A DNA stretch of 46,218 nucleotides from a virus, in the IMG/VR virus record IMGVR_UViG_3300019886_000008, positions 1 through 46,218 of that record; one strand, given 5' to 3'. Positions 30,055-46,218 of this stretch are shown piece after piece. The position numbers were made by a program, and so were the translations under genes. The notes below the pieces were generated by a model. That model was given only the letters and a program-made list of their open reading frames with translations, had not been told where the DNA came from and did no database searches. Positions within the stretch are counted from its first letter, which is position 1, and every line of letters starts with the position of its first letter.

Positions 30055-30065
30055 AGGCGGGGACG

Positions 30066-33729: not shown

Positions 33730-34187
33730 TTGCAAATGACCTCGGCGCCAAACCTCGCGATCAACGCCGCCTCGGCTCGGTTGTGATCTTTCTTGCGTTC
33801 GAAATGCTTGGCGCATGCCGGAAAAAGCTGGAGAGCGAGAGCTCGGGACTTTTCCTTGTCCTTTGTCAGCTTCCAGTGTTTTTTCCAGACTGTCGGGCTT
33901 ACCGAGCGGCGTGGAATATTTAATGCGCCAAGAATTCCGTCTATTACGCCGCACGCTCTGCCGAACTTGAAGGTGGATGACACTCCTTGCCCTGGCATTG
34001 CGCCGACAGCCTCGAACACGGCGAAATCCGGCGCCATCTGGCGAATCCGATCGGCGAGCCGTCCGCTGTCGATATGCCCGTAGGCCGTAGGGAAGTCCTC
34101 GGCAATGACGCGATGCGGCGCCTCTGGCCAATAGAAAGCGAGGGCGCCGCTAACGCCTGGATCGATACCTAAAATGCAGGTTGTCAC
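33726..34187 (-). CDS. RuvC-like Holliday junction resolvase (153 aa)
   Basis: All RuvC motifs are visible: ILGIDPGVSGALAF (Asp9), DFAVFEAVGAMPGQG (Glu59) and KKDHNRAEAALIA (Asp134 and Glu139), with a central TFKFGRACGVIDGIL. Length and motif spacing match bacterial and phage RuvC-type metal-dependent nucleases. It should resolve branched replication or recombination intermediates before packaging. Located in the early replication operon, overlapping both neighbours by 4 bp. Confidence 0.88.
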   Translation of the reverse strand: MTTCILGIDPGVSGALAFYWPEAPHRVIAEDFPTAYGHIDSGRLADRIRQMAPDFAVFEAVGAMPGQGVSSTFKFGRACGVIDGILGALNIPRRSVSPTVWKKHWKLTKDKEKSRALALQLFPACAKHFERKKDHNRAEAALIARFGAEVICK

Positions 34188-34561
34188 TCGGCTGCGTCTT
34201 CAAACTGCAGTTCAGCCTGTACGCCAGGATGAAGCCACTCGATGATTTGAGAATGCCGGGTAATTCTATCAATGATAGAATCTCGATCCATGCCCTTAAG
34301 CTGGAGAGCGAAATCGATATCCTTCTTCGGGATGCCGTCAGCCTTGGCAGCTTTGTACGCCTGGCGGATTTCTCCCGCTAGCGCAGCGAAATCTAGCTTC
34401 ATTGGTAGAATTTCGTCGCAAGCCTTCATGAGCAACGAGCGTTTTTGTTCCTGCGTGAGCTCCTTGACAACGCTGTTATCGCCCATGCCAGGCTCCATGC
34501 CAGCGTGCATGTAGGCTTCGCCCTCTTTCGTCTTATTCCGTGATCCTAGCGGCCGTCCCAT
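34184..34561 (-). CDS. AT-hook-like early DNA-associated protein (125 aa)
   Basis: The ATG at 34561 has AAAGGA upstream; the frame extends further but with shadow sequence. It starts MGRPLGSRNKTKEG, an AT-hook-like GRP core. A central LTQEQKRSLLMKACDEILPM and a helical body follow (LAGEIRQAYKAAKADGIPKK, IIDRITRHSQIIEWLHPGV). The alternating helices with AKADG recall GapR/DUF2312-like nucleoid proteins, but I would not assign it to that family. Probably DNA-binding; upstream of and coupled to the resolvase. Confidence 0.6.
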   Translation of the reverse strand: MGRPLGSRNKTKEGEAYMHAGMEPGMGDNSVVKELTQEQKRSLLMKACDEILPMKLDFAALAGEIRQAYKAAKADGIPKKDIDFALQLKGMDRDSIIDRITRHSQIIEWLHPGVQAELQFEDAAE

Positions 34562-34696
34562 TTCGTTTTCCTTTCGTTGTGGTTGGACGCGGCGCCCAAC
34601 GGAGCGTTGCCAAGAGCCTAGTCCAACCATCGAACGGTTTGGAGGCGTTCGAGGAGCTGCGAGCGTTGACAGCCCAGGGCTCTTACCGCGCGATTC
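34562..34696. other. Non-coding leader with nested inverted repeats
   Basis: The gap upstream of the 125-aa gene contains GGTTGGAC/GTCCAACC arms about 50 bp apart with AACG-GAG-CGTT between them, and an AAGAGCC/GGCTCTT pair further out. This suggests a folded leader RNA or regulator sites. I see no ORF in it. Confidence 0.35.
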
Positions 34697-34840
34697 TTAT
34701 TTGCGGGTTGGTGGAAAATTAAACTCAGGTCCCGTGATTCCGAAGGCGATAAGAGACACGATCAGAAGCCCGGCGTTGAAGGCGAGGTCGATGGCTGGGA
34801 AAATTCCGATGCCTGTGAACATTTCTCCAACTCCTTCACA
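34697..34840 (-). CDS. Small membrane protein, start uncertain or frameshifted (47 aa)
   Basis: The hydrophobic frame FFPAIDLAFNAGLLIVSLIA then FGITGPEFNFPPTRK is coherent, with a single membrane helix. In its own frame the only start is GTG at 34840, without a ribosome site. An excellent AAGGAG plus ATG (34823) lies in another frame that reads MFTGIGIF and would join the hydrophobic frame only after a one-base shift at a run of five T. Either a real frameshift, a single-base assembly error or a mutation could explain this. Confidence 0.45.
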   Translation of the reverse strand, partial: CEGVGEMFTGIGIFPAIDLAFNAGLLIVSLIAFGITGPEFNFPPTRK

Positions 34841-34855
34841 AATCGTGATTGTTAT

Positions 34856-35068
34856 TTACTCGGCCGCTTCTTTAGACGAAGGCGGCGAATAGAAATCATT
34901 TGGCGTAACTTTTCCCTCCGTAAAATCCAGAATTCGGCGCATGACCGCCCGCCTCGGCAGGCTATGCTCGCGCACCCAAATGCTCACGGCCTGCTGTGTG
35001 ACGCCGATCGCTTCCGCGAAGGCGGGCTGTGTGAGATTTTTTTCGGCGAGAAATTGGTCGAGCTTCAT
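34856..35068 (-). CDS. Cro/CI-like HTH repressor, first gene of leftward early operon (70 aa)
   Basis: MKLDQFLAEKNLTQPAFAEA, IGVTQQAVSIWVREH, SLPRRAVMRRILDFTEGKV and NDFY form a compact Cro/XRE helix-turn-helix with no oligomerisation domain, the size of a Cro. The promoter 6 bp upstream puts the transcription start at the ATG, so the mRNA is probably leaderless. It diverges from the 151-aa HTH gene across an 84-bp operator region and likely controls both directions. Confidence 0.75.
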   Translation of the reverse strand: MKLDQFLAEKNLTQPAFAEAIGVTQQAVSIWVREHSLPRRAVMRRILDFTEGKVTPNDFYSPPSSKEAAE

Positions 35069-35074
35069 AAGCTC

Positions 35075-35103
35075 ATAAAACGATATTTGGTTGTTTATGT
35101 CAA
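35075..35103 (-). promoter_or_regulatory. Leftward early promoter, predicted leaderless
   Basis: On the minus strand TTGACA (35103-35098), 17 bp, then TTTTAT (35080-35075). Six bases separate the -10 box from the ATG at 35068, so transcription would start at or next to the initiation codon. No Shine-Dalgarno is present. Confidence 0.65.
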
Positions 35104-35106
35104 CAT
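35091..35106 (-). promoter_or_regulatory. Putative operator shared with 35705-35720
   Basis: Minus-strand ATGTTGACATAAACAA matches 14 of 16 bases of TTGTTGACATAGACAA at the plus-strand promoter at 35.7 kb. It covers the -35 box of the Cro-like gene and contains the palindrome ATGT-TG-ACAT. It is the likely site for one or both HTH regulators. Confidence 0.55.
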
Positions 35107-35152
35107 CGAAACATAGTTAGCCTAACACGGAATATTTTCAGATACTTATGCG

Positions 35153-35608
35153 ATGGGAAGACGCCGGGTGGAGAAGAAGCATAAGGCCAAGCCGGCGTGG
35201 ACAACCCGGCTGGAGGAACTGCGTAAGCACGTCAAGCTTGACCAGGTGCAGTTCGCCAAAACGCTCGGCCTAGCCAGCCAACAGGCCTACAATCGGTTCG
35301 CTATGGGCAAGTCGGAGCTTAAGGCCGAGCTGTGCCTTAAAATCCGCAAGGAATACGGAGTGTCGCTTGATTGGCTAATTGCCGGGAACGAACCCGTCAC
35401 CTCGACCAGACAAGTTCCGGTCGAGTGGAAACCGGGGATTCCGCTAGCTGTCCACGCTCTCTCTCTTTCAGAAATGATCGCAGCTCTCGCAAAAGACCCC
35501 GCACTGCTTCAATCTGATCGCCCACCGGCCGACCGTCCTCAGCCGAAATCTCAAGATCGTTCAGCCGGCGAATCAAAGCCAGGAAAACCCTCTCCTCGAA
35601 AGACATAA
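35153..35608 (+). CDS. XRE-family HTH regulator, divergent partner (151 aa)
   Basis: Residues ~16-85 hold the HTH domain (WTTRLEELRKHVKLDQVQFA, KTLGLASQQAYNRFAMGKSE, CLKIRKEYGVSLDWLIAGN). The C-terminal ~60 residues are Pro/Ser/Lys-rich and end in a basic tail. No LexA-like peptidase motif is present, so induction by RecA-stimulated self-cleavage is unlikely. The ATG has no Shine-Dalgarno; a GATACT box 6 bp upstream could make it leaderless as well. It may be the CI-like maintenance repressor or a second Cro-like switch protein. Confidence 0.7.
   Translation: MGRRRVEKKHKAKPAWTTRLEELRKHVKLDQVQFAKTLGLASQQAYNRFAMGKSELKAELCLKIRKEYGVSLDWLIAGNEPVTSTRQVPVEWKPGIPLAVHALSLSEMIAALAKDPALLQSDRPPADRPQPKSQDRSAGESKPGKPSPRKT
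35397..35606 (-). CDS. Possible antisense ORF under the HTH gene
   Basis: The opposite strand encodes MSFEERVFLALIRRLNDLEI, then GDQIEAVRGLLRELRSFLKE and RERGQ, a strikingly amphipathic helical sequence. The sense gene here is low complexity. It ends within the regulator and could be a small antisense-encoded protein or coincidence. The start (35606, or 35648 in the same frame) has no good ribosome site. Confidence 0.25.
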   Translation of the reverse strand: MSFEERVFLALIRRLNDLEISAEDGRPVGDQIEAVRGLLRELRSFLKERERGQLAESPVSTRPELVWSR

Positions 35609-35704
35609 TTTTTTCGTCCGGCAGGCCTGATTTTATTTTCCACTGCATCGCGCCAAAATATCCGCCATGTCAAGCGTCGCTGCCAAAACATCCACGATAA
35701 AATA

Positions 35705-35737
35705 TTGTTGACATAGACAATGAGATATTGTTATATG
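35705..35737 (+). promoter_or_regulatory. Rightward promoter with shared operator
   Basis: TTGACA at 35708-35713 and TATATG at 35732-35737 (18-bp spacer; TTATAT at 17 bp also possible). The -35 box is embedded in the 16-bp element that recurs at 35091-35106. It would drive the operon starting at 35776. Confidence 0.6.
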
Positions 35738-35775
35738 CGCCATCAGCCAGACAATCACGCTGGCATGGAGAGCCA

Positions 35776-36396
35776 ATGTTGAAGCTCGTACAGCCAATCG
35801 AAACCAGCACAATTCCCTATGACAGCGCTGTGGTGGCGGGGAAAAAGATCGTTGCTGATATTGAGGACATGCAATGGCGGCTCGGCGCGCTTGCCGATCG
35901 CCTCGAGCCGAAATACGGCGACGCGACTTTGGCAAGGTTCGCCGAAGAGCTGGGCATCAATTACCGCACCTTGAAGAACATGCGCTGCGTTACCCGAGCT
36001 TGGCAGGAATCGGACTGCCGTCCGTCCTTTTGTATTGGCCAGTCTTTAATGGCCCATCCAAATCGAGAAGAGATCGTGCGCAAGAACCCATTCTTGACTG
36101 TCCACGCCGCGCGCGCGCTGTCCAGGGAACTGCGAGAGCCCGCGAAAGAAATAGTTGCGGCCGACCCCATCCAAGAAGAATGCGCGGATTGCGACGGCCC
36201 GGAAGAATTTTGGGTACGCAGTTTAGGCAACATCCTTGGGGATGTTCTGTCGATCCGCGCCATGTGGACCAAGCTCTATCCGGGCTGGGAAAAATTCGAA
36301 ATCCCTTCGTCGCATGTCACGCTTGCTAAGCAAGCGGCAAAGGAACTGAACCAATTGGCAAGCGAGTTGAGGAGTTTTGCACGTGTTAAGGACTAG
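35776..36396 (+). CDS. ParB/initiator-like HTH protein (206 aa)
   Basis: The ATG at 35776 follows GGAG by 5 bp; the longer frame is not needed. MLKLVQPIETSTIPYDSAVV leads to a DNA-binding pattern (DMQWRLGALADRLEPKYGDA, LARFAEELGINYRTLKNMR) and SFCIGQSLMAHPNREEIV, LTVHAARALSREL, resembling plasmid/phage regulators with a KorB/ParB-like HTH. A Cys/Asp/Glu-rich linker (EECADCDGPEEFW) and helical C-terminus follow. First gene of the rightward operon after the switch. Regulator or accessory replication factor. Confidence 0.6.
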   Translation: MLKLVQPIETSTIPYDSAVVAGKKIVADIEDMQWRLGALADRLEPKYGDATLARFAEELGINYRTLKNMRCVTRAWQESDCRPSFCIGQSLMAHPNREEIVRKNPFLTVHAARALSRELREPAKEIVAADPIQEECADCDGPEEFWVRSLGNILGDVLSIRAMWTKLYPGWEKFEIPSSHVTLAKQAAKELNQLASELRSFARVKD

Positions 36397-37006
36397 ACGG
36401 TTCTACTATGGCCCGCAAGGTCAAGAGAAAACCATGTGGTGGGACCTGAGATGGTCTCCCGCAACTGAAAACGTAACCATCAATGGCAAGCTCATGCATG
36501 CCTTGAAGGGCATGCCGGGGATGTCTGTTGGGTGTGTAATGTCCAACGTGGCATTCGACAAAAGCAACCAGCCAGCGTTCCCGCACACGGTCTACATGGC
36601 GCAGTTCCTGAAGAGCATTGCGCTTATTGTGGACGAGATCAAGAACGGCTCCCCGTCACATTGCGTGGTCTACGCGCACTCTTACGGCGACATTGTCGAT
36701 CTTAATGATGTGGGCGAGCTCAAAAAACTGGCAAAGGACAATCCAGCCTTGGTCGAGCGCGATTTTACGTTGCGCGCGTACCATTCAAGCGAGCCCGGCA
36801 AGAAGAAGTCGCCAAAGAACACACCAGAGCCCAAACCTGCGACCCCGAAAATAATGGTGGCCGCCGTCGAGAAACCCGACGGCGAAAATGCACCGGTTGC
36901 CCGTAAAAAGGCTCCTGTGCATCGGGGAGTGCTGGGAAGGGCGGTGAGATATGGTCAAGTTGATCGTGGCGTTGCCAAGCAATTGTCGGAAATGGCCAGG
37001 CGGTAG
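36383..37006 (+). CDS. Hypothetical early protein with basic C-terminus (207 aa)
   Basis: I prefer the GTG at 36383 because GAGGAG lies 7 bp upstream; the frame also has a TTG two codons earlier. The N-terminal ~135 residues are globular and aromatic-rich (RTRRFYYGPQGQEKTMWWDL, HALKGMPGMSVGCVMSNV, YMAQFLKSIALIVDEIKNG). The rest is Lys/Pro-rich, ending ARKKAPVHRGVLGRAVRYGQ and a helix. Overlaps the previous gene by 14 bp. Nucleic-acid binding seems likely; no family recognised. Confidence 0.55.
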   Translation: MLRTRRFYYGPQGQEKTMWWDLRWSPATENVTINGKLMHALKGMPGMSVGCVMSNVAFDKSNQPAFPHTVYMAQFLKSIALIVDEIKNGSPSHCVVYAHSYGDIVDLNDVGELKKLAKDNPALVERDFTLRAYHSSEPGKKKSPKNTPEPKPATPKIMVAAVEKPDGENAPVARKKAPVHRGVLGRAVRYGQVDRGVAKQLSEMARR

Positions 37007-37068
37007 GCATGGCCCTAGCCCATGCCGGGCGCGAGCGCGGCATGCACGAGGGCCAAGAGGAGAACGCC

Positions 37069-37263
37069 ATGATAAGCGGCCACAAGTCAGAGCAATCCGT
37101 CGTGAACCATATCCGCATGCTGTACGCGCTTCAGGACCGCACGAAGGAAGCCGATGATTTCATGTACAAGCTTGCGCAAGACTATCTCACTTCGAGCGCG
37201 GACAATGTCACCGCCCGTCGCCGTGCCCATGACTTGCTCAGAATCGCAGCGGGGACGATATGA
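37069..37263 (+). CDS. Small helical early protein (64 aa)
   Basis: The ATG at 37069 has GAGGAG 6 bp upstream, so the two earlier in-frame ATGs are rejected. MISGHKSEQSVVNHIRMLYA then DRTKEADDFMYKLAQDYLTS and RRRAHDLLRIAAGTI form two to three charged helices. Unknown. Confidence 0.6.
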   Translation: MISGHKSEQSVVNHIRMLYALQDRTKEADDFMYKLAQDYLTSSADNVTARRRAHDLLRIAAGTI

Positions 37264-37505
37264 CCATTTCGCGCGAGGTAGCAAACGTCATCGTCCACAT
37301 GATGACCGAGGCGCAGCTCGCCCGCGTCATGAACCGCATGAAGCGGTATTCCGATGCATTCCCAGATATCCGCGACGTGATCGCGCAGGCCGTCCACGAT
37401 GAGCTTGTGGCGATTATCGCCAATCTTCCGCCAACCGTGGAGCGACTCAATGACCGCGCACTCCCGACATTTTCCAATCCACCAGCCGGACGATCCGGGG
37501 TTTGA
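37260..37505 (+). CDS. Small helical early protein (81 aa)
   Basis: ATGA overlap with the previous stop. MTISREVANVIVHMMTEAQL, ARVMNRMKRYSDAFPDIRDV and AHDELVAII-like helices dominate, with a Pro/Ser-rich end. Unknown; probably co-translated with its neighbours. Confidence 0.55.
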   Translation: MTISREVANVIVHMMTEAQLARVMNRMKRYSDAFPDIRDVIAQAVHDELVAIIANLPPTVERLNDRALPTFSNPPAGRSGV

Positions 37506-37629
37506 CGAATTTCCCGAGCCCAACGTGGGCTATTATCCAGGCTGGCTCACCGCGATTATCTGGGTTGCACCGAGCGTATTGTTCTGGGCAATCGCCTATG
37601 TGGTTCTCATTGAAGTGGTGCTCCGATGA
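37450..37629 (+). CDS. Small membrane protein with acidic head (59 aa)
   Basis: The ATG at 37450 has GGAG 8 bp upstream. MTAHSRHFPIHQPDDPGFDE then GYYPGWLTAIIWVAPSVLFW and AIAYVVLIEVVLR: a His/Asp-rich head followed by one long membrane helix. Overlaps the previous gene by 56 bp and the next by 4. Function unknown. Confidence 0.55.
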   Translation: MTAHSRHFPIHQPDDPGFDEFPEPNVGYYPGWLTAIIWVAPSVLFWAIAYVVLIEVVLR

Positions 37630-37919
37630 CCAGGGAAGAGCTCAGAACCAAGGCGATCTGGACATTGGCATCCACAAATTTTGATTTCCAGAAGCCCGCG
37701 AACGCTCGCAGCTTCGCTCAAATGCCGACGTTTATCCGTGAGCTGCTCATTGAGAAAATGACCGTCGCCTTTGGTGCGCTTGGCGAGGCCGGGTTCCCTG
37801 TCCTTGGCGATATAACGAGCGAGATGATGCAGGCTAATAGCGAGCTTCCTCATAACTCGTCACTGGCAACTAGGTTTAAGACCATGCTCGAGGCCGGCGA
37901 TCTGACGAGGAAGCTATGA
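37626..37919 (+). CDS. Hypothetical early protein (97 aa)
   Basis: MTREELRTKAIWTLASTNFD, ARSFAQMPTFIRELLIEKMT and VAFGALGEAGFPVLGDITSE; mostly helical and soluble, coupled by ATGA on both sides. Not recognised. Confidence 0.55.
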   Translation: MTREELRTKAIWTLASTNFDFQKPANARSFAQMPTFIRELLIEKMTVAFGALGEAGFPVLGDITSEMMQANSELPHNSSLATRFKTMLEAGDLTRKL

Positions 37920-38239
37920 CAAGCGATACCTGGCCGTACGCGTTGAATTCACGCGGGCACCCAATCGTAACCTGTTTCTTGGACGCCGGGGTTGATGGCG
38001 AGATAGCGACCTGGCGATCCTACGTCGTGTTGCCAAAGCCGGCTGGCAAGTCCGAATTCAACTATGAGGCGGCAGCTTTCCGCGCCGGATGGAAGCGGGC
38101 CGCGCTAGGGGGCTGGTTCAAGCCAGGGGAATTGGCGCGGTTCGCAGGAGATGTCCGCGAGCTTTGTTTCTACATTGGCGTGGGCCCAGATTGGGAAGCG
38201 TGGGGGCATCAGACATACCGAGAAAGGCTCACGTCATGA
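37916..38239 (+). CDS. Hypothetical aromatic-rich early protein (107 aa)
   Basis: The sequence is mixed alpha/beta (MTSDTWPYALNSRGHPIVTC, IATWRSYVVLPKP, WKRAALGGWFKPGELARFAG, ELCFYIGVGPDWEAWGHQTY) with many Trp. Four-base overlaps on both ends. Unknown; shape suggests a small globular domain. Confidence 0.55.
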   Translation: MTSDTWPYALNSRGHPIVTCFLDAGVDGEIATWRSYVVLPKPAGKSEFNYEAAAFRAGWKRAALGGWFKPGELARFAGDVRELCFYIGVGPDWEAWGHQTYRERLTS

Positions 38240-38373
38240 CAAAACTTAGAACTTTTTTCTTTTTCTCATTTGGCCTGACTTTCTTGTTTGGCTTCCTGCT
38301 TGGCGTCTGGCTTGGCAAGCAGTCGCCGTGCTCTGAGGTCGAGCAAATAGATATTGGGAAGGTGCTGCAGTGA
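38236..38373 (+). CDS. Small membrane protein (45 aa)
   Basis: MTKLRTFFFFSFGLTFLFGF then LLGVWLGKQSPCSEVEQIDI: one membrane helix with a positive N-terminus and short acidic C-tail. Overlaps both neighbours (ATGA upstream, GTGA downstream). Unknown. Confidence 0.6.
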   Translation: MTKLRTFFFFSFGLTFLFGFLLGVWLGKQSPCSEVEQIDIGKVLQ

Positions 38374-38696
38374 CGGAAGATAAAATTGCGATCATGGTTC
38401 TATCCACCGGGATGGAGATGATCGGCGAGGTCCTTTCCGGCACAACCAAATTCGGAATTGACGCCCTCGTCATTTACAAACCGTCTGTTGTGTCGATCCA
38501 GCCGACCGGCCTCGGATTGCGCAGCGTCTTTGACGGCAATCCTGCTTATTCAGGGCCTGACTTGGCGATATCGCGCCACGCGGTCGTGATGATCTCCAAG
38601 CCGAGCAAGAACCTCTTGGACGCGTATAAGGCGCAGCGCGCCGGATTGCTCGCCGCCGCCCCGATCGGTCCAAAAATTACTGGAAGAAATCAATGA
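38370..38696 (+). CDS. Possible Sm/Hfq-like small protein (108 aa)
   Basis: The GTG at 38370 overlaps the previous stop. The core AIMVLSTGMEMIGEVLSGTT, IDALVIYKPSVVSIQPT and SRHAVVMISKPSKNLLDAYK has the strand spacing of phage LSm-like proteins (a G-E-V-like Sm1 and a later hydrophobic strand). RNA binding is a guess from this pattern. Upstream of and overlapping the recombination exonuclease. Confidence 0.4.
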   Translation: MTEDKIAIMVLSTGMEMIGEVLSGTTKFGIDALVIYKPSVVSIQPTGLGLRSVFDGNPAYSGPDLAISRHAVVMISKPSKNLLDAYKAQRAGLLAAAPIGPKITGRNQ

Positions 38697-39571
38697 TCGA
38701 ATCTCCCCTCCCCGTCGGCATTCATTACAATGTTTCGGCCGCCGCATATCACGCGGACCCATGTGAAAAGCCATCGCTGTCTTCGTCGGTGGCAAAAATT
38801 TTGATCGAGAAGACGCCGCGTCATGCCTGGCACGCGCACCCTCGGCTCAATCCTGATTTTGCGGCGGATAAGAGCCCCAAGTTTGATCTCGGCTCCGCCG
38901 TCCATGAGCTCATGCTCGGCAAGGGCGTGGGCTATACGGTCATTGACGCCGCAGATTATCGCGGCAAGGAAGCACAGCAAGCGCGCCAGAAGGCCCGAGA
39001 ATCCGGCACCGTGCCATTGCTCGGGGAGCAGTACAAGCAGGCCGTCGGGATCGCCAAGGAGGCGCTCGACGCCCTCGCCAAAATGGATGTGCATCTAGAG
39101 GATTACCGCAACGAGGGCGTGCTCATTTGGGAGAACCACGAGTTGCCATGTCGAGCGATGGTGGATTCGATCGGCCGCGGGATACACCAAATTTGGGATA
39201 TCAAAACCACGTCCGCAGGTCTCTCGGACTTTGCGATCGCCAGGAATATCGTCAACTTTGGTTATGATCTTCAGGCCGCCTTTTATATCAAAGGCATGGA
39301 AGCGCTCTTCCAAGAACTCACCGACCGCATCGAGTTCAGATGGGTGTTTGTCGAGACTGATCCGCCATATGACCTTCGCGTTATCCAGGCCGATGCAACC
39401 ACGCTGGAATTCGGGCGCCGCAAGGCCGGGGCCGCAATGCTCATGTGGGCAGCGTGCATGAGCTCTGGCAACTGGCCGGGCTGGCCACGCGGCATCGGGA
39501 AAATCACCTATCCGTCTTGGGCTGAGTCCGCCTGGCTCGACCGCGAGCTGCAAGAGGCGGGGATCGAATGA
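38693..39571 (+). CDS. RecE-like PDDEXK exonuclease (DUF3799 type) (292 aa)
   Basis: The N-terminus GIHYNVSAAAYHADPCEKPS then LSSSVAKILIEKTPRHAWHA is the standard opening of exodeoxyribonuclease VIII-like/DUF3799 phage nucleases. The catalytic core is AMVDSIGRGIHQIWDIKTTS, giving the D...(D/E)xK residues, preceded by GSAVHELMLG. Length is normal. It would resect double-strand ends 5' to 3' to make single strands for annealing, as in Red/RecET. The next gene is its probable partner. Confidence 0.82.
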   Translation: MIESPLPVGIHYNVSAAAYHADPCEKPSLSSSVAKILIEKTPRHAWHAHPRLNPDFAADKSPKFDLGSAVHELMLGKGVGYTVIDAADYRGKEAQQARQKARESGTVPLLGEQYKQAVGIAKEALDALAKMDVHLEDYRNEGVLIWENHELPCRAMVDSIGRGIHQIWDIKTTSAGLSDFAIARNIVNFGYDLQAAFYIKGMEALFQELTDRIEFRWVFVETDPPYDLRVIQADATTLEFGRRKAGAAMLMWAACMSSGNWPGWPRGIGKITYPSWAESAWLDRELQEAGIE

Positions 39572-39608
39572 TCTTGGCAGGGCCGGGCGAGGCAAGGCAA
39601 GGATTTAA

Positions 39609-40202
39609 ATGACTGATATTTTGCAAACAATCGAGCCAAAAAGCGATCAACTCAACGCCGATGATCTTCTTGGCGGCCGCACGATCACGATCACGATCAC
39701 CGATGTCACTATCGTGCCAGGCGATCAGCCGGTCTCGCTCTATTTCGAAGGCGACGACGGAAAACCCTACAAGCCCGGCAAGTCCATGCGGCGCGTTATT
39801 GTGAACGCATGGGGGACGGACACCAAATCGTACGTCGGCCGCAGGATGACGCTCTACCGCGATGACAAGGTGATCTTCGGCGGTGTCCAGGTCGGCGGAA
39901 TACGGATTTCGCATATGTCCGACATCAAGCAGAGCATAACGATGGCTCTCACGGCCACGCGCGCCAGCAGGAAGCCATTTACCGTTGAGCCGCTTGAAAT
40001 GGGAGCACAAGGCCGCATGCCTGGGGGCGTCTTTGCCGAGCCGCAGGAGCTGTTCGAACTCATCGAGAATGGCAACGAGGCGGCGACCGGCGGTATGCTG
40101 AAGGCATTTTGGACGAGCCTTTCACTAGCACAGCGCAAGGCAATCGGCGCCGCTCAGCTAGAAACATGGAAGAAAATAGCAGATGAAAAGTCCAATCCCT
40201 AA
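39609..40202 (+). CDS. Uncharacterised recombination partner, SSB/annealase-like (197 aa)
   Basis: It follows the RecE-like nuclease by 37 bp. The strand-rich core ADDLLGGRTITITITDVTIV, DQPVSLYFEGDDGKPYKPGK, SMRRVIVNAWGTDTKSYVGR and MTLYRDDKVIFGGVQVGG is a recurring companion of DUF3799 nucleases in alphaproteobacterial phages and looks OB-fold-like. A C-terminal helical segment (KAFWTSLSLAQRKAIGAAQL) ends the protein. Expected to bind or anneal single-stranded DNA; no Redbeta, Erf or Rad52 motif is apparent, so this is inferred from context. Confidence 0.65.
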   Translation: MTDILQTIEPKSDQLNADDLLGGRTITITITDVTIVPGDQPVSLYFEGDDGKPYKPGKSMRRVIVNAWGTDTKSYVGRRMTLYRDDKVIFGGVQVGGIRISHMSDIKQSITMALTATRASRKPFTVEPLEMGAQGRMPGGVFAEPQELFELIENGNEAATGGMLKAFWTSLSLAQRKAIGAAQLETWKKIADEKSNP

Positions 40203-40353
40203 GGTAGTTAGAATAATAGGAGCTGCATTTTTTATTCCTACGGCGGCTCTTTGCTTCACATTGCTAGTTCAGCACCCATCACCCGACAATGGTGGCATAT
40301 ATGAATTGTTGGCCGTTTCTACGTTTATGAGCGGTTTTCTGATATTTATATAG
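40183..40353 (+). CDS. Two-helix membrane protein (56 aa)
   Basis: MKSPIPKVVRIIGAAFFIPT with AALCFTLLVQ forms helix one, and YELLAVSTFMSGFLIFI helix two, separated by a short HPSPDNGG loop. Its start overlaps the end of the recombination gene by 20 bp. Holin- or exclusion-like topology; no known function. Confidence 0.55.
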   Translation: MKSPIPKVVRIIGAAFFIPTAALCFTLLVQHPSPDNGGIYELLAVSTFMSGFLIFI

Positions 40354-40360
40354 AAAATAC

Positions 40361-40389
40361 TTGACATAAATATAATACAGCACAATATC
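40361..40389 (+). promoter_or_regulatory. Putative promoter before the 38-aa gene
   Basis: TTGACA at 40361-40366, in an AT-rich stretch, with an AATATC or neighbouring -10 candidate at about 40383-40389. The -10 is poor, but the TTGACATAAA start matches the promoters at 29601 and 35103. Confidence 0.4.
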
Positions 40390-40406
40390 TAAGTATGGAG
40401 GATCGG

Positions 40407-40523
40407 ATGGTCGGTATTGCACTTGTAACATTCAGCGTATGTGTAACTTATTGCGTATCCGTTCTTTCCATTCGCATCGATAAACTAGAACGCAGAATAA
40501 AGGAGCTAGAAAAACATGTCTAA
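40407..40523 (+). CDS. Membrane-anchored short coiled-coil peptide (38 aa)
   Basis: GGAGG precedes the ATG at 40407. MVGIALVTFSVCVTYCVSVL then SIRIDKLERRIKELEKHV: one membrane helix followed by a clear leucine-heptad coil. Overlaps the next gene by 8 bp. Could oligomerise in the membrane. Confidence 0.6.
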   Translation: MVGIALVTFSVCVTYCVSVLSIRIDKLERRIKELEKHV

Positions 40524-40740
40524 GAGCAAAGAAGTTTCAACTATTACTAAAGCGGCAGGCATGGCCGCCAAGAACATCGCGCGGATGGAAGCCTGCGCAG
40601 AGCTTGTCCACGCCGAGGAGACAAAGCGCCGGAGCCTGCAGCTCGTGTCGACCGGCGAGCAGTTCAGCGCTCTGATCCGCCACGGTAAGACCACGCTCCA
40701 ATTCGAGGGCGATTCGTTCGCGGTAACGCATAACGACTGA
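40516..40740 (+). CDS. Small early protein (74 aa)
   Basis: MSKSKEVSTITKAAGMAAKN is followed by helical ARMEACAELVHAEETKRRSL and a beta-like LQFEGDSFAVTHND end. Soluble, no motif recognised. Followed by a strong hairpin. Confidence 0.55.
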   Translation: MSKSKEVSTITKAAGMAAKNIARMEACAELVHAEETKRRSLQLVSTGEQFSALIRHGKTTLQFEGDSFAVTHND

Positions 40741-40742
40741 CC

Positions 40743-40782
40743 CTTCGGCCTGCCGGGTGTCCTCCCGCCCGGCAGAGCGAAG
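40743..40782 (+). terminator. Strong hairpin after the 74-aa gene
   Basis: CTGCCGGG/CCCGGCAG forms a perfect 8-bp stem with a 10-nt loop, extended by CTTCG/CGAAG outside a small internal loop. It begins 3 bp after a stop codon. There is no U-tract, so it may attenuate, stabilise or process the mRNA ahead of the exported cassette. The rest of 40783-40910 shows no convincing gene. Confidence 0.5.
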
Positions 40783-40910
40783 CGCCAGGCAACGGCTCAG
40801 AAATGAGCCAGCGCATGCTGAGAAATCGGTATGAAAATGGAGCGCCTGTCCTAGGGATTAATGCGCGGATACGACACGCCCGCGACGCTTCATCCAAGAA
40901 AGGAAAGCAC

Positions 40911-41138
40911 ATGACACAACTAGGGTACTTTGGACTTGCAGCTGCGATGATCGGTGGAATGTTGCTTCTCGGCATCCCGGCGAAATCCCAGGAGCTCGAG
41001 GTAACGCCGTATGGGCCGCGCATTGGGATCGGGCCGCGCTATCATCATGAATGGAGACGCCACGAAGATTCCGATCGCGATTATTGGCGCCGGCGCCACC
41101 ACCGTCACCATCATCATTGGGATGACGACGAAGATTGA
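40911..41138 (+). CDS. Exported His/Arg/Asp-rich protein (75 aa)
   Basis: The ATG at 40911 has AAAGGAAAG upstream; a longer frame exists but adds non-protein-like sequence. MTQLGYFGLAAAMIGGMLLL then GIPAKSQE is a signal peptide. The mature protein is extraordinarily His/Arg/Asp-rich (YHHEWRRHEDSDRDYWRRRH, HRHHHHWDDDED), suggesting metal or polyanion binding in the periplasm. First of four consecutive exported genes. Unlike its cytoplasmic neighbours it looks like a host-derived or moron gene. Confidence 0.65.
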   Translation: MTQLGYFGLAAAMIGGMLLLGIPAKSQELEVTPYGPRIGIGPRYHHEWRRHEDSDRDYWRRRHHRHHHHWDDDED

Positions 41139-41148
41139 GGAGGATTAA

Positions 41149-41466
41149 ATGAGACGTATATTCGCAATTACGATGGTCGCAGCGCTCACCGCTGCCGCGC
41201 CGGCATATGCTCAGCATTGGCATGGGGGAGGCGGTGGGTGGCACGGCGGCGGAGGAGGCTGGCATCATGGCGGCAGTGGTTTTGGACCTGGCGCCGCCAT
41301 TGCTGGCGGCTTGCTCGGGCTCGGGATCGCTGGCGCTATAGCAGGGTCTCAATATAACGACGGCTATGACGATGGTTATACGCCGTACTACGCCGCTCCT
41401 AGATACAGCGCTCGCTGCCCATATGGCTACTACTTCGCCAGTGACGGACTGTGTTATCCGGGCTGA
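41149..41466 (+). CDS. Exported Gly/His-rich protein (105 aa)
   Basis: GAGGAGGA precedes the ATG. MRRIFAITMVAALTAAAPAY then AQ is a signal peptide. The mature part has a WHGGGGGWHGGGGGWHHGG region, a Gly/Ala segment long enough to enter a membrane (GPGAAIAGGLLGLGIAGAIA), an acidic-aromatic stretch (YNDGYDDGYTPYY) and a C-terminal CPYGYYFASDGLCYPG disulphide-like loop. Such Gly/His-rich envelope proteins occur in Rhizobiales. Metal binding or envelope modification is possible. Confidence 0.65.
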   Translation: MRRIFAITMVAALTAAAPAYAQHWHGGGGGWHGGGGGWHHGGSGFGPGAAIAGGLLGLGIAGAIAGSQYNDGYDDGYTPYYAAPRYSARCPYGYYFASDGLCYPG

Positions 41467-41529
41467 CGTTTCGGCATGGGCTTGCGAGCCCATTGCGAAG
41501 CGCCTGCTTCACTAACAAGGGAGATTAAA

Positions 41530-41673
41530 ATGACACACAATTTTCTAGGCCTATCAATCGCCTTCGCCATCTTGTGGATGGTGTTCGCCATCCCGGCCCA
41601 TGCCGAGACTTGCTACAGCACCTGCTCGACCAACAGCGGGGGCATTCAGACATGTAACTCGCAATGCTACTGA
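41530..41673 (+). CDS. Exported Cys-rich mini-peptide (47 aa)
   Basis: GGGAG precedes the ATG at 41530. MTHNFLGLSIAFAILWMVFA then IPAHA is a signal peptide. The predicted mature peptide is about 22 residues with four Cys in a Cx3C...Cx3C pattern (ETCYSTCSTNSG, TCNSQCY), a disulphide-paired hairpin. Its last 10 bp overlap the start of the exported protease gene, so the two are made together. Toxin, inhibitor, adhesin or protease substrate are all possible. Confidence 0.6.
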   Translation: MTHNFLGLSIAFAILWMVFAIPAHAETCYSTCSTNSGGIQTCNSQCY

Positions 41674-42317
41674 GAGGCTTGCTGTTCGTGCTTGCCGTCC
41701 TATTCGCGTGTGGCGCGCATGCGAGTGAGGCGGATTACCCGTCGAACAGTCGCGCGGCCTCACCAGTTCCAAGCGGCACTCGCGCGAGGCTGCATATCCT
41801 ACCATGCGAAGCTGGCACTTCGTTCAAGAAATGTTCGAACATTTCTTTGACTGGGGAGCTTACCATCGCTGATGGCGATGCCTTCGCGCTCAGGACAAAA
41901 GAGATTGCGCGCGCCGTCGTGACGCTCGCCGGGGAAGGCGGCAGCACGTTCGCCGCGATTAAGATAGGCGAAATCATCCACGCCAAGAAATACGCGACAG
42001 TGGTTAATGGGTTCTGCTTTTCCGCATGCGCGTACATTTGGATCGCGGGCCAAGATCGCGGCCTCGGGCTGGGCGGGATGGTTGTGTTCCATCCGTCCTA
42101 CAACATCGAGCAAGAGGACGTCGCCGACGGCTCTGGGAATGCCCTACTCGGGATGTATATGGCTCGCCTTGGCTACAATTATGACGATGTAATACGCACA
42201 ATTGGGCATGGCCCAAACGATCTCCACGTCGTATTCATGAAGCTGGACGGCGTTGTAGACCGCCGCAACATTACGGCCGTTGAGTTTAGGGCAATCCTCG
42301 CAGGAGAGCCGCATTGA
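41664..42317 (+). CDS. Exported ClpP-class (crotonase-fold) serine protease-like protein (217 aa)
   Basis: The signal peptide MLLRGLLFVLAVLFACGAHA is followed by a ClpP/SppA-like domain: SLTGELTIADGDAF, LAGEGGSTFAAIKIGEIIHA (the oxyanion GGS-type turn), KYATVVNGFCFSACAYIWIA with candidate nucleophile Ser120, and GLGGMVVFHPSYN with candidate His143. Four Cys (48, 57, 118, 122) could pair in the periplasm. This resembles secreted ClpP-like proteins of alphaproteobacteria rather than capsid-maturation proteases, and it lies far from the head genes. A substrate cannot be named; the coupled Cys-rich peptide is a candidate. Confidence 0.72.
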   Translation: MLLRGLLFVLAVLFACGAHASEADYPSNSRAASPVPSGTRARLHILPCEAGTSFKKCSNISLTGELTIADGDAFALRTKEIARAVVTLAGEGGSTFAAIKIGEIIHAKKYATVVNGFCFSACAYIWIAGQDRGLGLGGMVVFHPSYNIEQEDVADGSGNALLGMYMARLGYNYDDVIRTIGHGPNDLHVVFMKLDGVVDRRNITAVEFRAILAGEPH

Positions 42318-42586
42318 AGTTCGACGACCTTCCCCTCTACGCGACCGACAAGGAGCTTGCCGAGGCTTTTCTTGGCAAGCGCGCCTATCTGTGGCCGGCG
42401 ATCGCTCTGCATTACGAGGGGCGCGGGCTACCAGCGATCGATAGCCTGTTTGGCGGACGCTACGTCCCCGCTGTTATTAAATTCTTCGATGCGGTAAATG
42501 GAGTAAACGGCGCCGCGCCGATCCCCGCGGCAGATGGGGAGGAACAACCATGGCCGGCCCAAAACTCACGGAAACGCCAGGCTTAG
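42314..42586 (+). CDS. Winged-helix excisionase-like protein (90 aa)
   Basis: It starts at TTG 42314, overlapping the previous stop (TTGA). MKFDDLPLYATDKELAEAFL, then WPAIALHYEGRGLPAIDSLF and GGRYVPAVIKFFDAV follow a pattern I associate with a small gene just upstream of prophage integrases in alphaproteobacteria; the size and helix-wing layout fit a recombination directionality factor. It overlaps the integrase start by 37 bp. Excision control is inferred. Confidence 0.6.
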   Translation: MKFDDLPLYATDKELAEAFLGKRAYLWPAIALHYEGRGLPAIDSLFGGRYVPAVIKFFDAVNGVNGAAPIPAADGEEQPWPAQNSRKRQA

Positions 42587-43743
42587 TTTATATCAAGCGC
42601 AAGTGTGGGCCGTCAGTTCCGATCTGGCGCGCACCCAAAGCCGCCATCAAGGCAGGCTTCCCGATCAAGACGTGGAACCTTTCGGAGTGTCCGCCTGCCG
42701 AGCTGCCCGCCCGCTGTCAGCGCATTTGGGCCGAGGCGATGGACTTCAAGGGAGAGCATCCGCCCCTCTACAATGGGACCATTGGCTCCCTCATGGAGCT
42801 TTATCAGACGCATAAGGAATCGTCTTATCACCAGCTCAAGTCGACAACTTCCAGGACATACGACACCTATATCGCAAAGATCATCAAGGCTTACGGGGCT
42901 CGCCGCGTCGGCAACATAACCGGCCTCGACGTGCTGCGTTGGGCAGAAGCCTGGTCGGATGGCAAACAGCACCTCGCCGCCGCCATGATGGCCGCCAACG
43001 TATTGAAATCCGCACTCGGATTTGGGCAGCTCTGCGGCTTTGCCGACTGCAGGCGTCTCCGCGAAATCCTCTCGGTCCTGCATCTGCCACGCCCGAAGGC
43101 CAGGGAGCAGGCTCCAGGGGCCATGGAGGTGCGCCGGGCCATGGATGCCGCCATTGCCCTCGGGCAGCCCTCAGCGGCCTTCTGCTACGCCCTGCAGTTT
43201 GAGACAGCGGCGCGCCAGTACGACATCACCGGCCAATGGGTTCCGATCAACGACCCGCGCATTTCGCCAATTACTGGGCGATCCAAAAAATGGATCGGCC
43301 CGACGTGGGCAGCGATCAGTGAAGATATGATTTTTACTTTCACGCCAAGCAAAACAGAGCGAACAACCGGCCGCCGAATCGGTGTCGATCTCAAACTCTG
43401 TCCGCTTGTGATGGAGGCGATTGCAAGCATCCCCTCTGCGGCGCGGATCGGCCCCCTCGTGATCGACACTCGCACCGGCAAGCCGTTTCCCGGGAGGTCT
43501 TTTTTGGCATTGTGGGATAAGGTCCGCACGCGGGCTGGGCTTCCAAAGACATTATGGAACCGCGACCTGCGCGCCGGAGCTCTCACGGAAGGCGGCATGG
43601 CCGGGGCTACCGCAGATGATCGCGCCAAGCTCGCGGGCCACTCTGGGCCAAAGATGGTGCGCGGAGTTTACGACCGGGATGTTCTGGTGAGCGCCAACCG
43701 TGTTGCAGAAGCAAGGGCGAGATTTAGGAAGGACGGAAAATGA
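42550..43743 (+). CDS. Tyrosine-type site-specific integrase (397 aa)
   Basis: The catalytic domain (residues ~190-380) shows Arg222 in ALQFETAARQYDITGQW, Lys268 in TFTPSKTE, Arg341 in LWNRDLRAGALTEGG, His364 in KLAGHSGPKM and the nucleophile Tyr374 in VRGVYDRDV. The HxxR box reads RDLR, so its first His is replaced by Arg338. An N-terminal SAM-like DNA-binding domain spans residues ~75-180. It should integrate the phage into the host chromosome, confirming a temperate lifestyle. The excisionase-like gene precedes it. Confidence 0.88.
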   Translation: MAGPKLTETPGLVYIKRKCGPSVPIWRAPKAAIKAGFPIKTWNLSECPPAELPARCQRIWAEAMDFKGEHPPLYNGTIGSLMELYQTHKESSYHQLKSTTSRTYDTYIAKIIKAYGARRVGNITGLDVLRWAEAWSDGKQHLAAAMMAANVLKSALGFGQLCGFADCRRLREILSVLHLPRPKAREQAPGAMEVRRAMDAAIALGQPSAAFCYALQFETAARQYDITGQWVPINDPRISPITGRSKKWIGPTWAAISEDMIFTFTPSKTERTTGRRIGVDLKLCPLVMEAIASIPSAARIGPLVIDTRTGKPFPGRSFLALWDKVRTRAGLPKTLWNRDLRAGALTEGGMAGATADDRAKLAGHSGPKMVRGVYDRDVLVSANRVAEARARFRKDGK

Positions 43744-43928
43744 AGCCAGGTGATCGAGTTTTATGTTGGGCTGGGGATATGGCCACCGTAATTCAGATCG
43801 ATGGCAATGACGTGAAGGTATGCATCGATAGGACGGGGGAATCTTGGGTCCATCTGTCGCAAGTTCAGACCATGGAGCAAATTGGCGTCTCCGAAGCGCG
43901 CGCCAAGTTCAGGAAGGGAAGCGGATGA
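43740..43928 (+). CDS. Small SH3/KOW-like protein after integrase (62 aa)
   Basis: ATGA overlap with the integrase stop. KPGDRVLCWAGDMATVIQID and NDVKVCIDRTGESWVHLSQV form a compact beta-barrel-like pattern, followed by a helix (SEARAKFRKGS) resembling the integrase C-terminus (AEARARFRKDGK). Unknown; possibly an integrase accessory. Confidence 0.5.
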   Translation: MKPGDRVLCWAGDMATVIQIDGNDVKVCIDRTGESWVHLSQVQTMEQIGVSEARAKFRKGSG

Positions 43929-44116
43929 CACATAATATGATAATTGCAATCGGGTTTGCGATGATGATCGTCGGTCTAGCGGTGGTCATGATTGGGGTCT
44001 GGAAAGCTCCGATGATTCGCACAACTTGGACCGCCATAAAGCCAGGCGATCCGGACCAGGTCCTTACGATAGACAAGGATGGCAAGGGAACCTGGGATTA
44101 TCCCAAGAACAAATAA
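43925..44116 (+). CDS. Membrane-anchored small protein (63 aa)
   Basis: MTHNMIIAIGFAMMIVGLAV with VMIGVW forms one membrane helix, followed by a soluble tail (IRTTWTAIKPGDPDQVLTID, KDGKGTWDYPKNK). Coupled by 4 bp to the previous gene. Unknown. Confidence 0.55.
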   Translation: MTHNMIIAIGFAMMIVGLAVVMIGVWKAPMIRTTWTAIKPGDPDQVLTIDKDGKGTWDYPKNK

Positions 44117-44239
44117 ACACACGCCCAACGCACGCGTCACACGATAGATATATATATCAATGTGTTACTGCGCATATTTATTAACTGCTTGTTAATCCTA
44201 CGTCGTTGATTCCATTATATATAAGGAGAAGGTGACGAA
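44117..44239 (+). promoter_or_regulatory. AT-rich promoter/operator region
   Basis: This 123-bp gap is AT-rich. It holds GATATATATATC, the inverted repeat ATTAAC-TGCTT-GTTAAT (44180-44196), and a possible promoter TTGTTA (44189-44194) to CATTAT (44213-44218) with an 18-bp spacer. The -35 overlaps the inverted repeat, implying regulation. AAGGAGAAGG precedes the next ATG. As AT-rich DNA near the integrase it might also contain attP, but no core can be identified from this window. Confidence 0.45.
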
Positions 44240-44422
44240 ATGAACGAGATGAAAGAACTAGCCGCGAGGCCGATTAGTCTCGTTGAAACCCCTGTTGCCC
44301 ACGATCCAAACCTATGGTGCAGGATTTTGCGGCTAGAGGAAAAATGCAGGCGTTATGAGGAGAGGCTAGCTAGAATCGCTAGAATCGCAGCGCTCGCGGA
44401 AAAGGAAACGGTGACGAAATGA
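44240..44422 (+). CDS. Small coiled-coil protein (60 aa)
   Basis: Strong ribosome site (AAGGAGAAGG). MNEMKELAARPISLVETPVA followed by a charged helix (LRLEEKCRRYEERLARIARI) likely to form a coiled coil. First gene of the rightward end operon. Unknown. Confidence 0.55.
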   Translation: MNEMKELAARPISLVETPVAHDPNLWCRILRLEEKCRRYEERLARIARIAALAEKETVTK

Positions 44423-44697
44423 GCGAGATGGTAGAGCGCGCAAAGAAGGCGGTCGAAGAATGCGGAATAGATTGGCAGGATTGGGATGGAAATTACGGCA
44501 TCGCTGACAAATTCGATCTAATCGTCCGCACTGTCATCGCCGCCATGCGAGAGCCGACGGGAGAGATGATCGACGTAGGCAGCTACCCGGTTCCGCTTGA
44601 TGCTGAAATGGCGGCAACCTCAAACGAAATAGCGCTGGAGATTTGGAAAGCCATGATCGACGCCGCGCTTGCGGAAAAGGAAGAGGAAACGAAATGA
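44419..44697 (+). CDS. MSEMVER-family small protein, copy 1 (92 aa)
   Basis: It shares MSEMVER, a DWxD motif, AAMREPTGEM and a terminal WKAMIDAALA with the next gene. The pattern is common in small alphaproteobacterial phage proteins. Overlaps both neighbours by 4 bp. Function unknown. Confidence 0.65.
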   Translation: MSEMVERAKKAVEECGIDWQDWDGNYGIADKFDLIVRTVIAAMREPTGEMIDVGSYPVPLDAEMAATSNEIALEIWKAMIDAALAEKEEETK

Positions 44698-44942
44698 GCG
44701 AGATGGTCGAGCGGGTCGCAGAAGCGATGAATCGCTCCGAAGTAGATTGGCGGGACATAGACGAAGCTTCGGTCACCTGCCTTGCCCGCGCAGCGATAGC
44801 CGCCATGCGCCTGCCTACGCAGGAGATGGTTAAGGCTGGAGCACTTGCAACCAGGAAGATACTGGATTGGGACAGGTCTGCGACTGCGACTCGTGTATGG
44901 CAATCCATGATCGATGCCACACTCGCGGGAAAGAAGCCATGA
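44694..44942 (+). CDS. MSEMVER-family small protein, copy 2 (82 aa)
   Basis: Tandem paralogue of the 92-aa gene: MSEMVERVAEAM, VDWRDIDEA, AAIAAMRLPTQEMVKAG and WQSMIDATLAG. It arose by duplication and has diverged in the middle. Unknown function. Confidence 0.65.
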   Translation: MSEMVERVAEAMNRSEVDWRDIDEASVTCLARAAIAAMRLPTQEMVKAGALATRKILDWDRSATATRVWQSMIDATLAGKKP

Positions 44943-45055
44943 CGATGATCGTGTTCTTCCTCGGATTCGCCATCGGCTATCTGACGCGTGGCATCTTGGT
45001 GGTGGTTGGCGAAATATTGGACGAAGACCGCATCAGAAAATCAAAGCGCAATTAG
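44939..45055 (+). CDS. Small membrane peptide (38 aa)
   Basis: MTMIVFFLGFAIGYLTRGIL then VVVGEILDEDRIRKSKRN: one helix followed by a charged tail. ATGA overlap upstream; its end overlaps the convergent 270-aa gene by 15 bp. Unknown. Confidence 0.55.
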   Translation: MTMIVFFLGFAIGYLTRGILVVVGEILDEDRIRKSKRN

Positions 45056-45853
45056 ACTGGTATGCTGCCCTGGCGGCGCTTGATAGACTGGGATCGGAGC
45101 CGCGGGAGCGCGACTCGCTAGATATATAGTGCAAAGCAAGGAAAGGCCGGCGATTGCAGCCATGATGATCGTCATCGTATTTTGATTGCTACCTTGCACC
45201 GTCTGAGTTCTTTGTAACTCAAGAGCCGCCTCTTTCGCAGCCGCAATCACCTTGCGCGCAGCCTCTGTCTCCGCGCCTTCGTGGCGCCCGCCAGCGAGCT
45301 TCAATTGCGATAAGTCGTTCGCGATCTGGGCCATTGCCGGATCGGAGACCGCAGCCCGACCGCCCATATCGTAGCGAAACTTCTCTACCTCCGCGAGGCG
45401 CGAGTTCATTGTAGCAAGCGTAGCCACAATATTGTCAGAGGTTTTGTTGATCGTCTCGCTGAGAGACGTAGTGACTTTGTCCAACTGCGTCGAGACCAAA
45501 TCAGAGGTCGTCTTCATCTGCTCGCGTTGCGTCTCGGAAATCTGCTTGTCGTAATCTTTCTTCAGGGCGGCCAAGTCGTCGACCCGACGCCGCTCGGCGC
45601 TTATCACCATGTCGAAATAGGTGTTGACGTGTCTGATTTCCGCTGAAAGGTATCTTTCTGCGTCTGCGTCTTTCTCCCGCTGGAAGCGGGCTTGTGCGTC
45701 AACGAGCGCGAGAACGTTTTCGGTAGGGTCTATGACCGGAGCACCGCCAGCATCAACGCCGATGCCGGGCCGGCCAACCTTCCCCTCGTTTTTTGAGTAT
45801 CCGGCGGCGGTTGCTCGCCTGGTTTGACGGGCGTCGGGTGCCAAATCAACCAC
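45041..45853 (-). CDS. Coiled-coil protein with C-terminal membrane anchor (270 aa)
   Basis: The GTG at 45853 has AGAGGA 5 bp upstream and directly abuts the previous stop. After a disordered start (MVDLAPDARQTRRATAAGYS), residues ~50-215 are a long charged coiled coil (ERRRVDDLAALKKDYDKQIS, SDLVSTQLDKVTTSLSETIN). A single membrane helix follows near residue 228 (TMTIIMAAIAGLSLLCTIYL), with a short Pro-rich tail. The layout suits a membrane-tethered spanin-like or exclusion protein, or an inner-membrane late protein. It is on the late-gene strand next to the right edge. Confidence 0.6.
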   Translation of the reverse strand: MVDLAPDARQTRRATAAGYSKNEGKVGRPGIGVDAGGAPVIDPTENVLALVDAQARFQREKDADAERYLSAEIRHVNTYFDMVISAERRRVDDLAALKKDYDKQISETQREQMKTTSDLVSTQLDKVTTSLSETINKTSDNIVATLATMNSRLAEVEKFRYDMGGRAAVSDPAMAQIANDLSQLKLAGGRHEGAETEAARKVIAAAKEAALELQRTQTVQGSNQNTMTIIMAAIAGLSLLCTIYLASRAPAAPIPVYQAPPGQHTSLIAL

Positions 45854-46012
45854 CTATTTCCTCTGCTCCCACCGCCCAGCGATAAATCCCACCACAAGGC
45901 CGGCTACATACCAGCAGGCCGATGGTACGCTAAGCGACCAACCGTCGCAAGGAAGAGAGGTGCCGCTGCCACTGCTATCAAGAAGGCCGACCAGAGCAGC
46001 CAGCGGGTCCAT
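45854..46012 (-). CDS. Small protein with C-terminal membrane helix (52 aa)
   Basis: The frame MDPLAALVGLLDSSGSGTSL, CDGWSLSVPSACWYVAGLVV, GFIAGRWEQRK fills the gap between its neighbours exactly and ends just before the next GTG. A competing frame from the ATG at 46017 (MRWTRWLLWSAFLIAVAAAP..., 37 codons, to 45904) has a better ATGA overlap. I prefer the 52-residue frame because of packing. Membrane-associated, possibly lysis-related; both readings remain open. Confidence 0.45.
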   Translation of the reverse strand: MDPLAALVGLLDSSGSGTSLPCDGWSLSVPSACWYVAGLVVGFIAGRWEQRK

Positions 46013-46013
46013 C

Positions 46014-46218
46014 TCATAAAGGCCGCATTACAGTCAGGTTTGTTATTACATGCCTTCCGATCGGACCCATCCCCGAAGTGCAAGCAATCATCAATCCATG
46101 CGATGTCGCCTCATCGAACAAGCCAAGGATCGGCTGATAAAGCTCAGTCATCCTTTTCTTGAGATCGGCGGCGACATCGGCGTCCGAACGAACGGTCATG
46201 TCGAGTTTAACTATTTCA
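46014..46218 (-). CDS. Small late protein, runs off right edge (partial, at least 61 aa)
   Basis: The frame is open to the right edge (EIVKLD before the ATG at 46199), so the start may lie outside. MTVRSDADVAADLKKRMTEL, QPILGLFDEATSHGLMIACT and RHVITNLTVMRPL has a beta-alpha-beta look typical of small phage accessory proteins. Not recognised. Confidence 0.5.
   Translation of the reverse strand, partial: EIVKLDMTVRSDADVAADLKKRMTELYQPILGLFDEATSHGLMIACTSGMGPIGRHVITNLTVMRPL

Follow-up and report, generated by a model that had tools for sequence, protein, structure and literature searches.

ClpP (S14 peptidase), the PH1510-N/NfeD1b membrane protease, a family of exported ClpP-class proteins of the Alphaproteobacteria, which we take to be COG3904, and a hypothetical protein of Agrobacterium phage Atu_ph07 are the described systems closest to gene D, which encodes an exported protein beside the integrase gene of a virus record. 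D resembles ClpP in fold (Z ~14) and in the positions of its Ser and His residues, but is exported, shares only ~15% identity with ClpP, has no conserved third acid and is accompanied by no cognate ATPase seen in its cassette. A profile of the D family finds PH1510-N as its best match among solved structures (E 7.7e-4; ClpP follows at E 0.0019), from which D differs in having His143 at the ClpP place and no NfeD-type C-terminal part. The signal peptide and the GG, CxSxC and FH motifs that mark the alphaproteobacterial family are all present in D (the second as C-x-S-A-C), as is an N-A-x-x-G-x-Y block; at 217 aa, D is shorter than many of these relatives (270–580 aa), lacks their W-L-T...G-I end and carries the additional residues Cys48 and Cys57. 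The Atu_ph07 protein, phage-borne and exported-looking like D, is 35.7% identical to it over 136 residues and is its best structural match in a viral library (E 4.5e-14), but is 281 aa long, belongs to a jumbo phage and has no gene like C upstream.

In the open-licence papers searched, we found no account of the function of the exported alphaproteobacterial ClpP-fold family; one paper describes a secreted PDZ plus ClpP-like protein (PMC12419801). The peptide encoded by gene C, which overlaps D, recalls the alpha-hairpinins of plants, for which PMC11591084 gives the motif C-x3-C-x(4-20)-C-x3-C, some members being inhibitors of trypsin. The C-x3-C-x9-C-x3-C of gene C falls within the motif as given there, and convergence is likely because the motif is so short. 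Described here as new are a small phage clade within the exported ClpP-like family, which is uncharacterised, and a tiny phage peptide with twin CX3C motifs.

The integrase-proximal cassette

The window, that is, the whole stretch of DNA analysed, corresponds to a complete virus record (46,218 bases, or 46.2 kb; IMGVR_UViG_3300019886_000008). Its proteins match PHROG families for a terminase large subunit, major head protein, head–tail adaptor, tail protein, T7-type internal virion protein with an endolysin domain, exonuclease VIII, repressor-like regulator and replication initiation protein. Because this set combines virion, replication and repressor-like matches with that of an integrase, the record is assigned, by sequence comparison, to a temperate, podovirus-like phage. 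The integrase is nearest to that of Sinorhizobium phage NV1.1.1 (38.6% identity over 97%). No near-identical phage for positions 30000–46218 was found among the phage records searched, and an integrase scan of viral contigs returned zero stretches. Elsewhere in the record are genes for an exported protein with a DPBB_1 lytic-transglycosylase-like domain, possibly with a part in lysis, for a small exported Cys-containing protein without a PHROG or Pfam match, and for a protein that resembles the GcrA cell-cycle regulator in its C-terminal part, a phage-borne GcrA-like end.

Table 1 Features of the virus record discussed in the text, in order of position.
Feature	Positions	Strand	Remarks
Capsid gene	20843–21829		~18 kb from gene D
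Head–tail adaptor gene	22910–24529		~18 kb from gene D
Exported DPBB_1 protein, 108 aa	27494–27820	−	30.6 bits, cut-off 28.8
Small exported Cys-containing protein, 89 aa	28905–29174	−
Protein with GcrA-like end	33196–34131	−	31.4 bits, cut-off 26.9
Small hydrophobic ORF	40183–40353	+
Small hydrophobic ORF	40407–40523	+
Strong hairpin	40737–40788	+	inner 10-bp stem 40750–40775
Gene A, 75 aa, His/Arg/Asp-rich	40911–41138	+	signal-peptide heuristic 2.80, borderline
Gene B, 105 aa, Gly/His-rich, exported	41149–41466	+	signal-peptide heuristic 4.29
Gene C, 47-aa exported peptide	41530–41673	+	signal-peptide heuristic 4.32
Gene D, 217-aa exported ClpP-class protein	41664–42317	+	signal-peptide heuristic 4.88
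90-aa ORF	42314–42586	+	TTG start; overlaps D and integrase
Integrase, 397 aa	42550–43743	+	PHROG 1, E 1.1e-12
Small hydrophobic ORF	43925–44116	+	opens with MTHN, as gene C does

The cassette (positions 40911–42317) consists of genes A to D, which follow one another in one direction between recombination genes on one side and a 90-aa ORF and the integrase gene on the other; this is the early, integrase-proximal position that the original prediction had given it. All four genes had been expected to open with Sec signal peptides. By a home-made heuristic (not SignalP), B, C and D are predicted to do so, whereas A is only borderline, its score sitting at the cut-off. The heuristic accepted 70 of 8609 ATG starts (0.8%) in first-order Markov sequences, for ORFs of at least 45 aa, and 32 of 591 in the record itself, so a run of four signal-peptide neighbours is more than would be expected by chance.

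The overlap of C and D, which had been put at 10 bp, has that length (41664–41673), the two genes being read in different frames. Shine–Dalgarno-like sequences lie upstream of A, B and C and none is obvious for D, which, together with the overlap, is consistent with translational coupling of D to C. D is probably also co-transcribed with the integrase gene, judging from the series of overlaps between C and D (10 bp), D and the 90-aa ORF (4 bp), and the 90-aa ORF and the integrase gene (37 bp). Of the excisionase and integrase genes predicted to follow the cassette, the integrase is supported (Table 1) and the excisionase is not: for the 90-aa ORF, Pfam, NCBIfam and PADLOC gave no match and PHROG a single one at chance level (E 0.25), and it is a putative excisionase gene by position only.

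The strong hairpin that the original prediction had placed ahead of the cassette is present, downstream of the recombination genes. The region 40735–40815 folds as RNA at −44.2 kcal/mol (z −4.72), and none of 200 shuffled sequences was as stable. The hairpin has no T run and is absent from the output of a terminator scan that requires one. Three small hydrophobic ORFs flank the cassette (Table 1).

Genes A and B have few counterparts. For A, there was no Pfam, PHROG or NCBIfam match, and 0 of 149 genomes matched at E 1e-4; for B, tblastn with the low-complexity filter on found no phage record at E 1, and 1 of 149 genomes matched at E 1e-6. PADLOC matched none of the five proteins scanned at E 0.1, on which ground a known anti-phage defence system is rejected, and the lysogenic-conversion or defence module originally proposed is left without support.

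Predicted fold, candidate active site and relatives of gene D

Searched alone, D matched no Pfam family. It matched PHROG 30575, to which no function is assigned, at E 3.4e-5, and NF045542 of NCBIfam, a ClpP-related head maturation protease, at 16.9 bits, below the cut-off of 120. A prohead (head maturation) protease is rejected for D by that score, by its export and by the ~18 kb that separate it from the capsid and adaptor genes.

The ClpP-class fold proposed for D is borne out by an AF2 model built from 69 aligned sequences (pLDDT 86.1, pTM 0.76). Foldseek matched the model to ClpP chains at E 1.8e-6, with TM-scores of only 0.39–0.46 (query length), and VIA-align placed ClpP chains in its top rows at Z 13.6–14.1 (139–144 residues, r.m.s.d. 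3.2–3.7), with 1000 of 1000 aligned chains at Z of at least 5. On the strength of this model, D is predicted to fold as a ClpP-class (ClpP/crotonase fold) domain.

Ser120 and His143, the candidate catalytic residues named beforehand, align in sequence with the Ser and His of the ClpP family. Both are invariant, together with Gly92, Gly93, Cys118 and Cys122, in all 93 sequences that remained, D included, after de-duplication of 114. Conservation of the Cys and Ser residues is partly circular, because the viral-contig and species-genome scans demanded C-x-S-x-C; the motif is also present in 24 loci found without the pattern (9 by tblastn and 15 by genome search, some of them overlapping other loci), and His143 belonged to no search pattern. 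A conserved third catalytic acid was not found, no nearby column being conserved as acidic in the 93 sequences: Asp or Glu occurs in 45 at position 185, in 23 at position 186 and in one at position 187, which is anchored to what we take to be Asp171 of ClpP.

Owing to the missing third acid, a serious, if unlikely, rival reading makes D a pseudo-enzyme: a binding protein with the ClpP fold whose active-site motif is retained for structural reasons, without a working triad. The divergent C-terminus of D, with a two-residue insertion where its relatives have W-L-T, points in the same direction. Against it stand the presence of Ser120 and His143 in every sequence compared, the His lying outside all search patterns, and the Ser/His and Ser/Lys dyads that are known in the ClpP fold.

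Relatives of D were reached by several routes. With tblastn, a single phage, Atu_ph07, was found in two records, along with 13 plasmid records. Scans with D as a single sequence confirmed none of 7 viral-contig stretches and none of 72 species-genome stretches, so an alignment was needed; wider profile scans with ten aligned sequences gave nine loci in viral contigs, and in species genomes 110 of 133 candidate stretches were confirmed and 80 kept. In one bacterial family, 15 of 391 genomes carried a relative at E 1e-10. Among 69 relatives, 14 match Pfam CLP_protease at E 0.01 or better, nine match NfeD1b_N and 60 match NF045542 at E 0.01 or better, the last being a general ClpP signal. The signal-peptide heuristic was positive in 99 of 113 loci. 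These comparisons place D in a widespread family of exported ClpP-like proteins whose members are mostly alphaproteobacterial. One member, of 542 aa, is encoded on a 46.6-kb viral contig (L014:5133–7557, +) after ORFs that resemble holin and cell-wall hydrolase genes by inspection.

Closest to D is a protein from an 11.8-kb phage contig (L013), 41% identical to it. The two pair with SH-aLRT support of 100 in an 88-row tree, from which five long-branched rows (L099, L009, L045, L055 and L052) had been dropped. In the 93-row tree the group also holds the Devosia protein L099 (support 95/99, branch 5.66), so chromosomal members of the clade are possible. D and the L013 protein have in common the AHAS cleavage region at the end of the signal peptide, a short C-terminus and the extra Cys48/Cys57 pair, which occurs only in these two among the sequences compared by eye. 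A scan with the alignment of the two returned only L013's own contig again (L133). The L013 gene lies downstream of RecE- and RecT-like genes and has a 4-bp overlap with the gene that follows it; its location, and the family members at nine viral-contig loci, weaken the earlier claim that early phage operons do not usually include exported serine proteases.

The wide distribution of the family in bacterial chromosomes and plasmids invites a reading in which the phage acquired commonplace envelope genes from a host and retained them as cargo for general host fitness, without a phage role. We regard this as distinctly unlikely, since the closest relative of D is a phage protein, not a host one, the end branch of D is long (1.33 changes per column), and A, B and C have no or almost no matches in the sampled bacterial family, which may not be that of the host.

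The twin-CX3C peptide and its neighbour

The mature part of the gene C peptide comprises ~22 aa and its C-terminal sequence is ETCYSTCSTNSGGIQTCNSQCY, with the motif C-x3-C-x9-C-x3-C-Y. A model from a two-row alignment, of low confidence (pLDDT 70.9, pTM 0.38), has helices at residues 8–34 and 39–46, and fits, without establishing, an alpha-hairpinin-like fold.

Scanning the collected loci for exported ATG ORFs of 28–90 aa with C-x3-C-x(5-14)-C-x3-C returned three: gene C itself; a 48-aa exported peptide on a viral contig (L140:1674–1820, −), which ends in ACYTHCNTYGNQTTCTQQCY and is 39% identical to C; and an 88-aa exported chromosomal protein (L157:1501–1767, +) with CYSRCLQFGGSPGACQPGC, in which the Cys spacing is that of gene C. 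The L140 peptide, from a record of 38.8 kb, is the sole clear look-alike found in phage DNA. It was the one real match among eight viral-contig stretches returned by a DNA pattern whose middle gap was 8 residues, against 9 in C; the pattern with a 9-residue gap returned ten stretches, none of them real, and a two-row profile (A4) returned 46 in viral contigs, of which zero were confirmed. By tblastn, gene C matched seven phage records, all at E 2 or worse and judged to be chance, and no plasmid at E 10, and the L140 peptide matched neither phages nor plasmids at E 10. In NCBIfam, C had a single match, below threshold (NF007464, E 0.0071, 17.1 bits, cut-off 168). In genomes of one bacterial family, C matched 8 of 391 at E 0.05 and profile A4 matched 88 of 391, many of these matches being confined to the signal peptide; from the A4 matches, 20 loci were collected. 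Present in two unrelated phage records, the twin-CX3C peptide may be a small product that recurs among phages.

The original prediction expected peptide and protease to be paired in other genomes. We considered 113 loci with a D relative, two of which had too little upstream sequence. In none of the remaining 111, which are partly non-independent as some proteins were reached by two routes (for example, L002/L015 and L019/L020), does a small exported four-Cys ORF end within 150 nt upstream; C and D of the record, serving as positive control, pass the same test. Only one genome is thus known to have the pairing. L013 likewise has no C-like gene upstream, and nothing in the L140 record matched D at E 1, in a search that had no positive control, so the expected conservation did not materialize. 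Some results point the opposite way. Near the D relative of Bradyrhizobium sp. 164 is an exported, His-rich two-Cys ORF of 56–61 aa that ends 42 nt before it (L022:5662–5847, +), and other small exported two-Cys ORFs occur near L049, L052, L071, L073, L080, L081, L084 and L119; none of these has four Cys, and they were therefore not counted as C.

A functional partnership between C and D, with C as substrate, cofactor or inhibitor, is suggested by their overlapping genes, by the want of a Shine–Dalgarno sequence for D, by the export of both (heuristic) and by a motif in C that is also that of the alpha-hairpinins, among which PMC11591084 counts trypsin inhibitors. Set against the 111 relatives without such an upstream gene, L013 among the phages, and an L140 peptide whose record has no match to D, such a pair is quite improbable. 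Still more improbable is a two-part periplasmic device in which a disulfide-stapled helical-hairpin peptide would restrain or guide a phage-specific ClpP-class protease, with envelope proteolysis switched on only upon loss or oxidation of the peptide. If real, it would be a protease–inhibitor pair of a kind absent from the searches made.

A tentative role for the cassette

Our preferred reading, held tentatively at a probability of about 0.45, is that the cassette is accessory, moron-like cargo directed at the envelope, with D a probable periplasmic Ser120–His143 peptidase and C an independent neighbour. Lying between the integrase and the recombination genes, the cassette would form an optional block whose target is the host envelope. 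D would be exported, losing its signal peptide after AHA, and would modify an envelope protein, as a small periplasmic Ser120–His143 peptidase, while infection or lysogeny is being established; it would be supplied either early by the phage or from the integrase-proximal operon. Because D lacks a ribosome site of its own, its translation would proceed by re-initiation after C. C would be a separate exported peptide, probably a helix–loop–helix closed by two disulfides, that need not work with D, and A, B and C would be further envelope-directed products of the same optional block. The fold of D, its conserved Ser and His and the family-wide export are supported computationally; its activity, substrate, timing and benefit we infer.

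A segment of another phage (L131) carries a 50%-identical neighbour gene, after which no run of exported genes follows on that strand, as is expected of optional cargo; absence from this one related segment is thin evidence for it. The least probable of the readings, and a very improbable one, is a role for D in lytic growth, such as helping envelope breakdown at lysis. The viral relative L014, placed directly after the ORFs resembling holin and hydrolase genes (by inspection), would agree with it, but in the present record 14 kb separate D from the lytic-transglycosylase-like gene, which is on the opposite strand, and D adjoins the integrase.

Alphaproteobacteria commonly encode exported ClpP-fold proteins, and the short, core-domain D of this phage offers a convenient minimal form in which to test for cleavage. 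Phages that carry D-type proteins point to the envelope as the place of action. The twin-CX3C peptide is worth annotating, as genes of fewer than 50 codons are easily missed.
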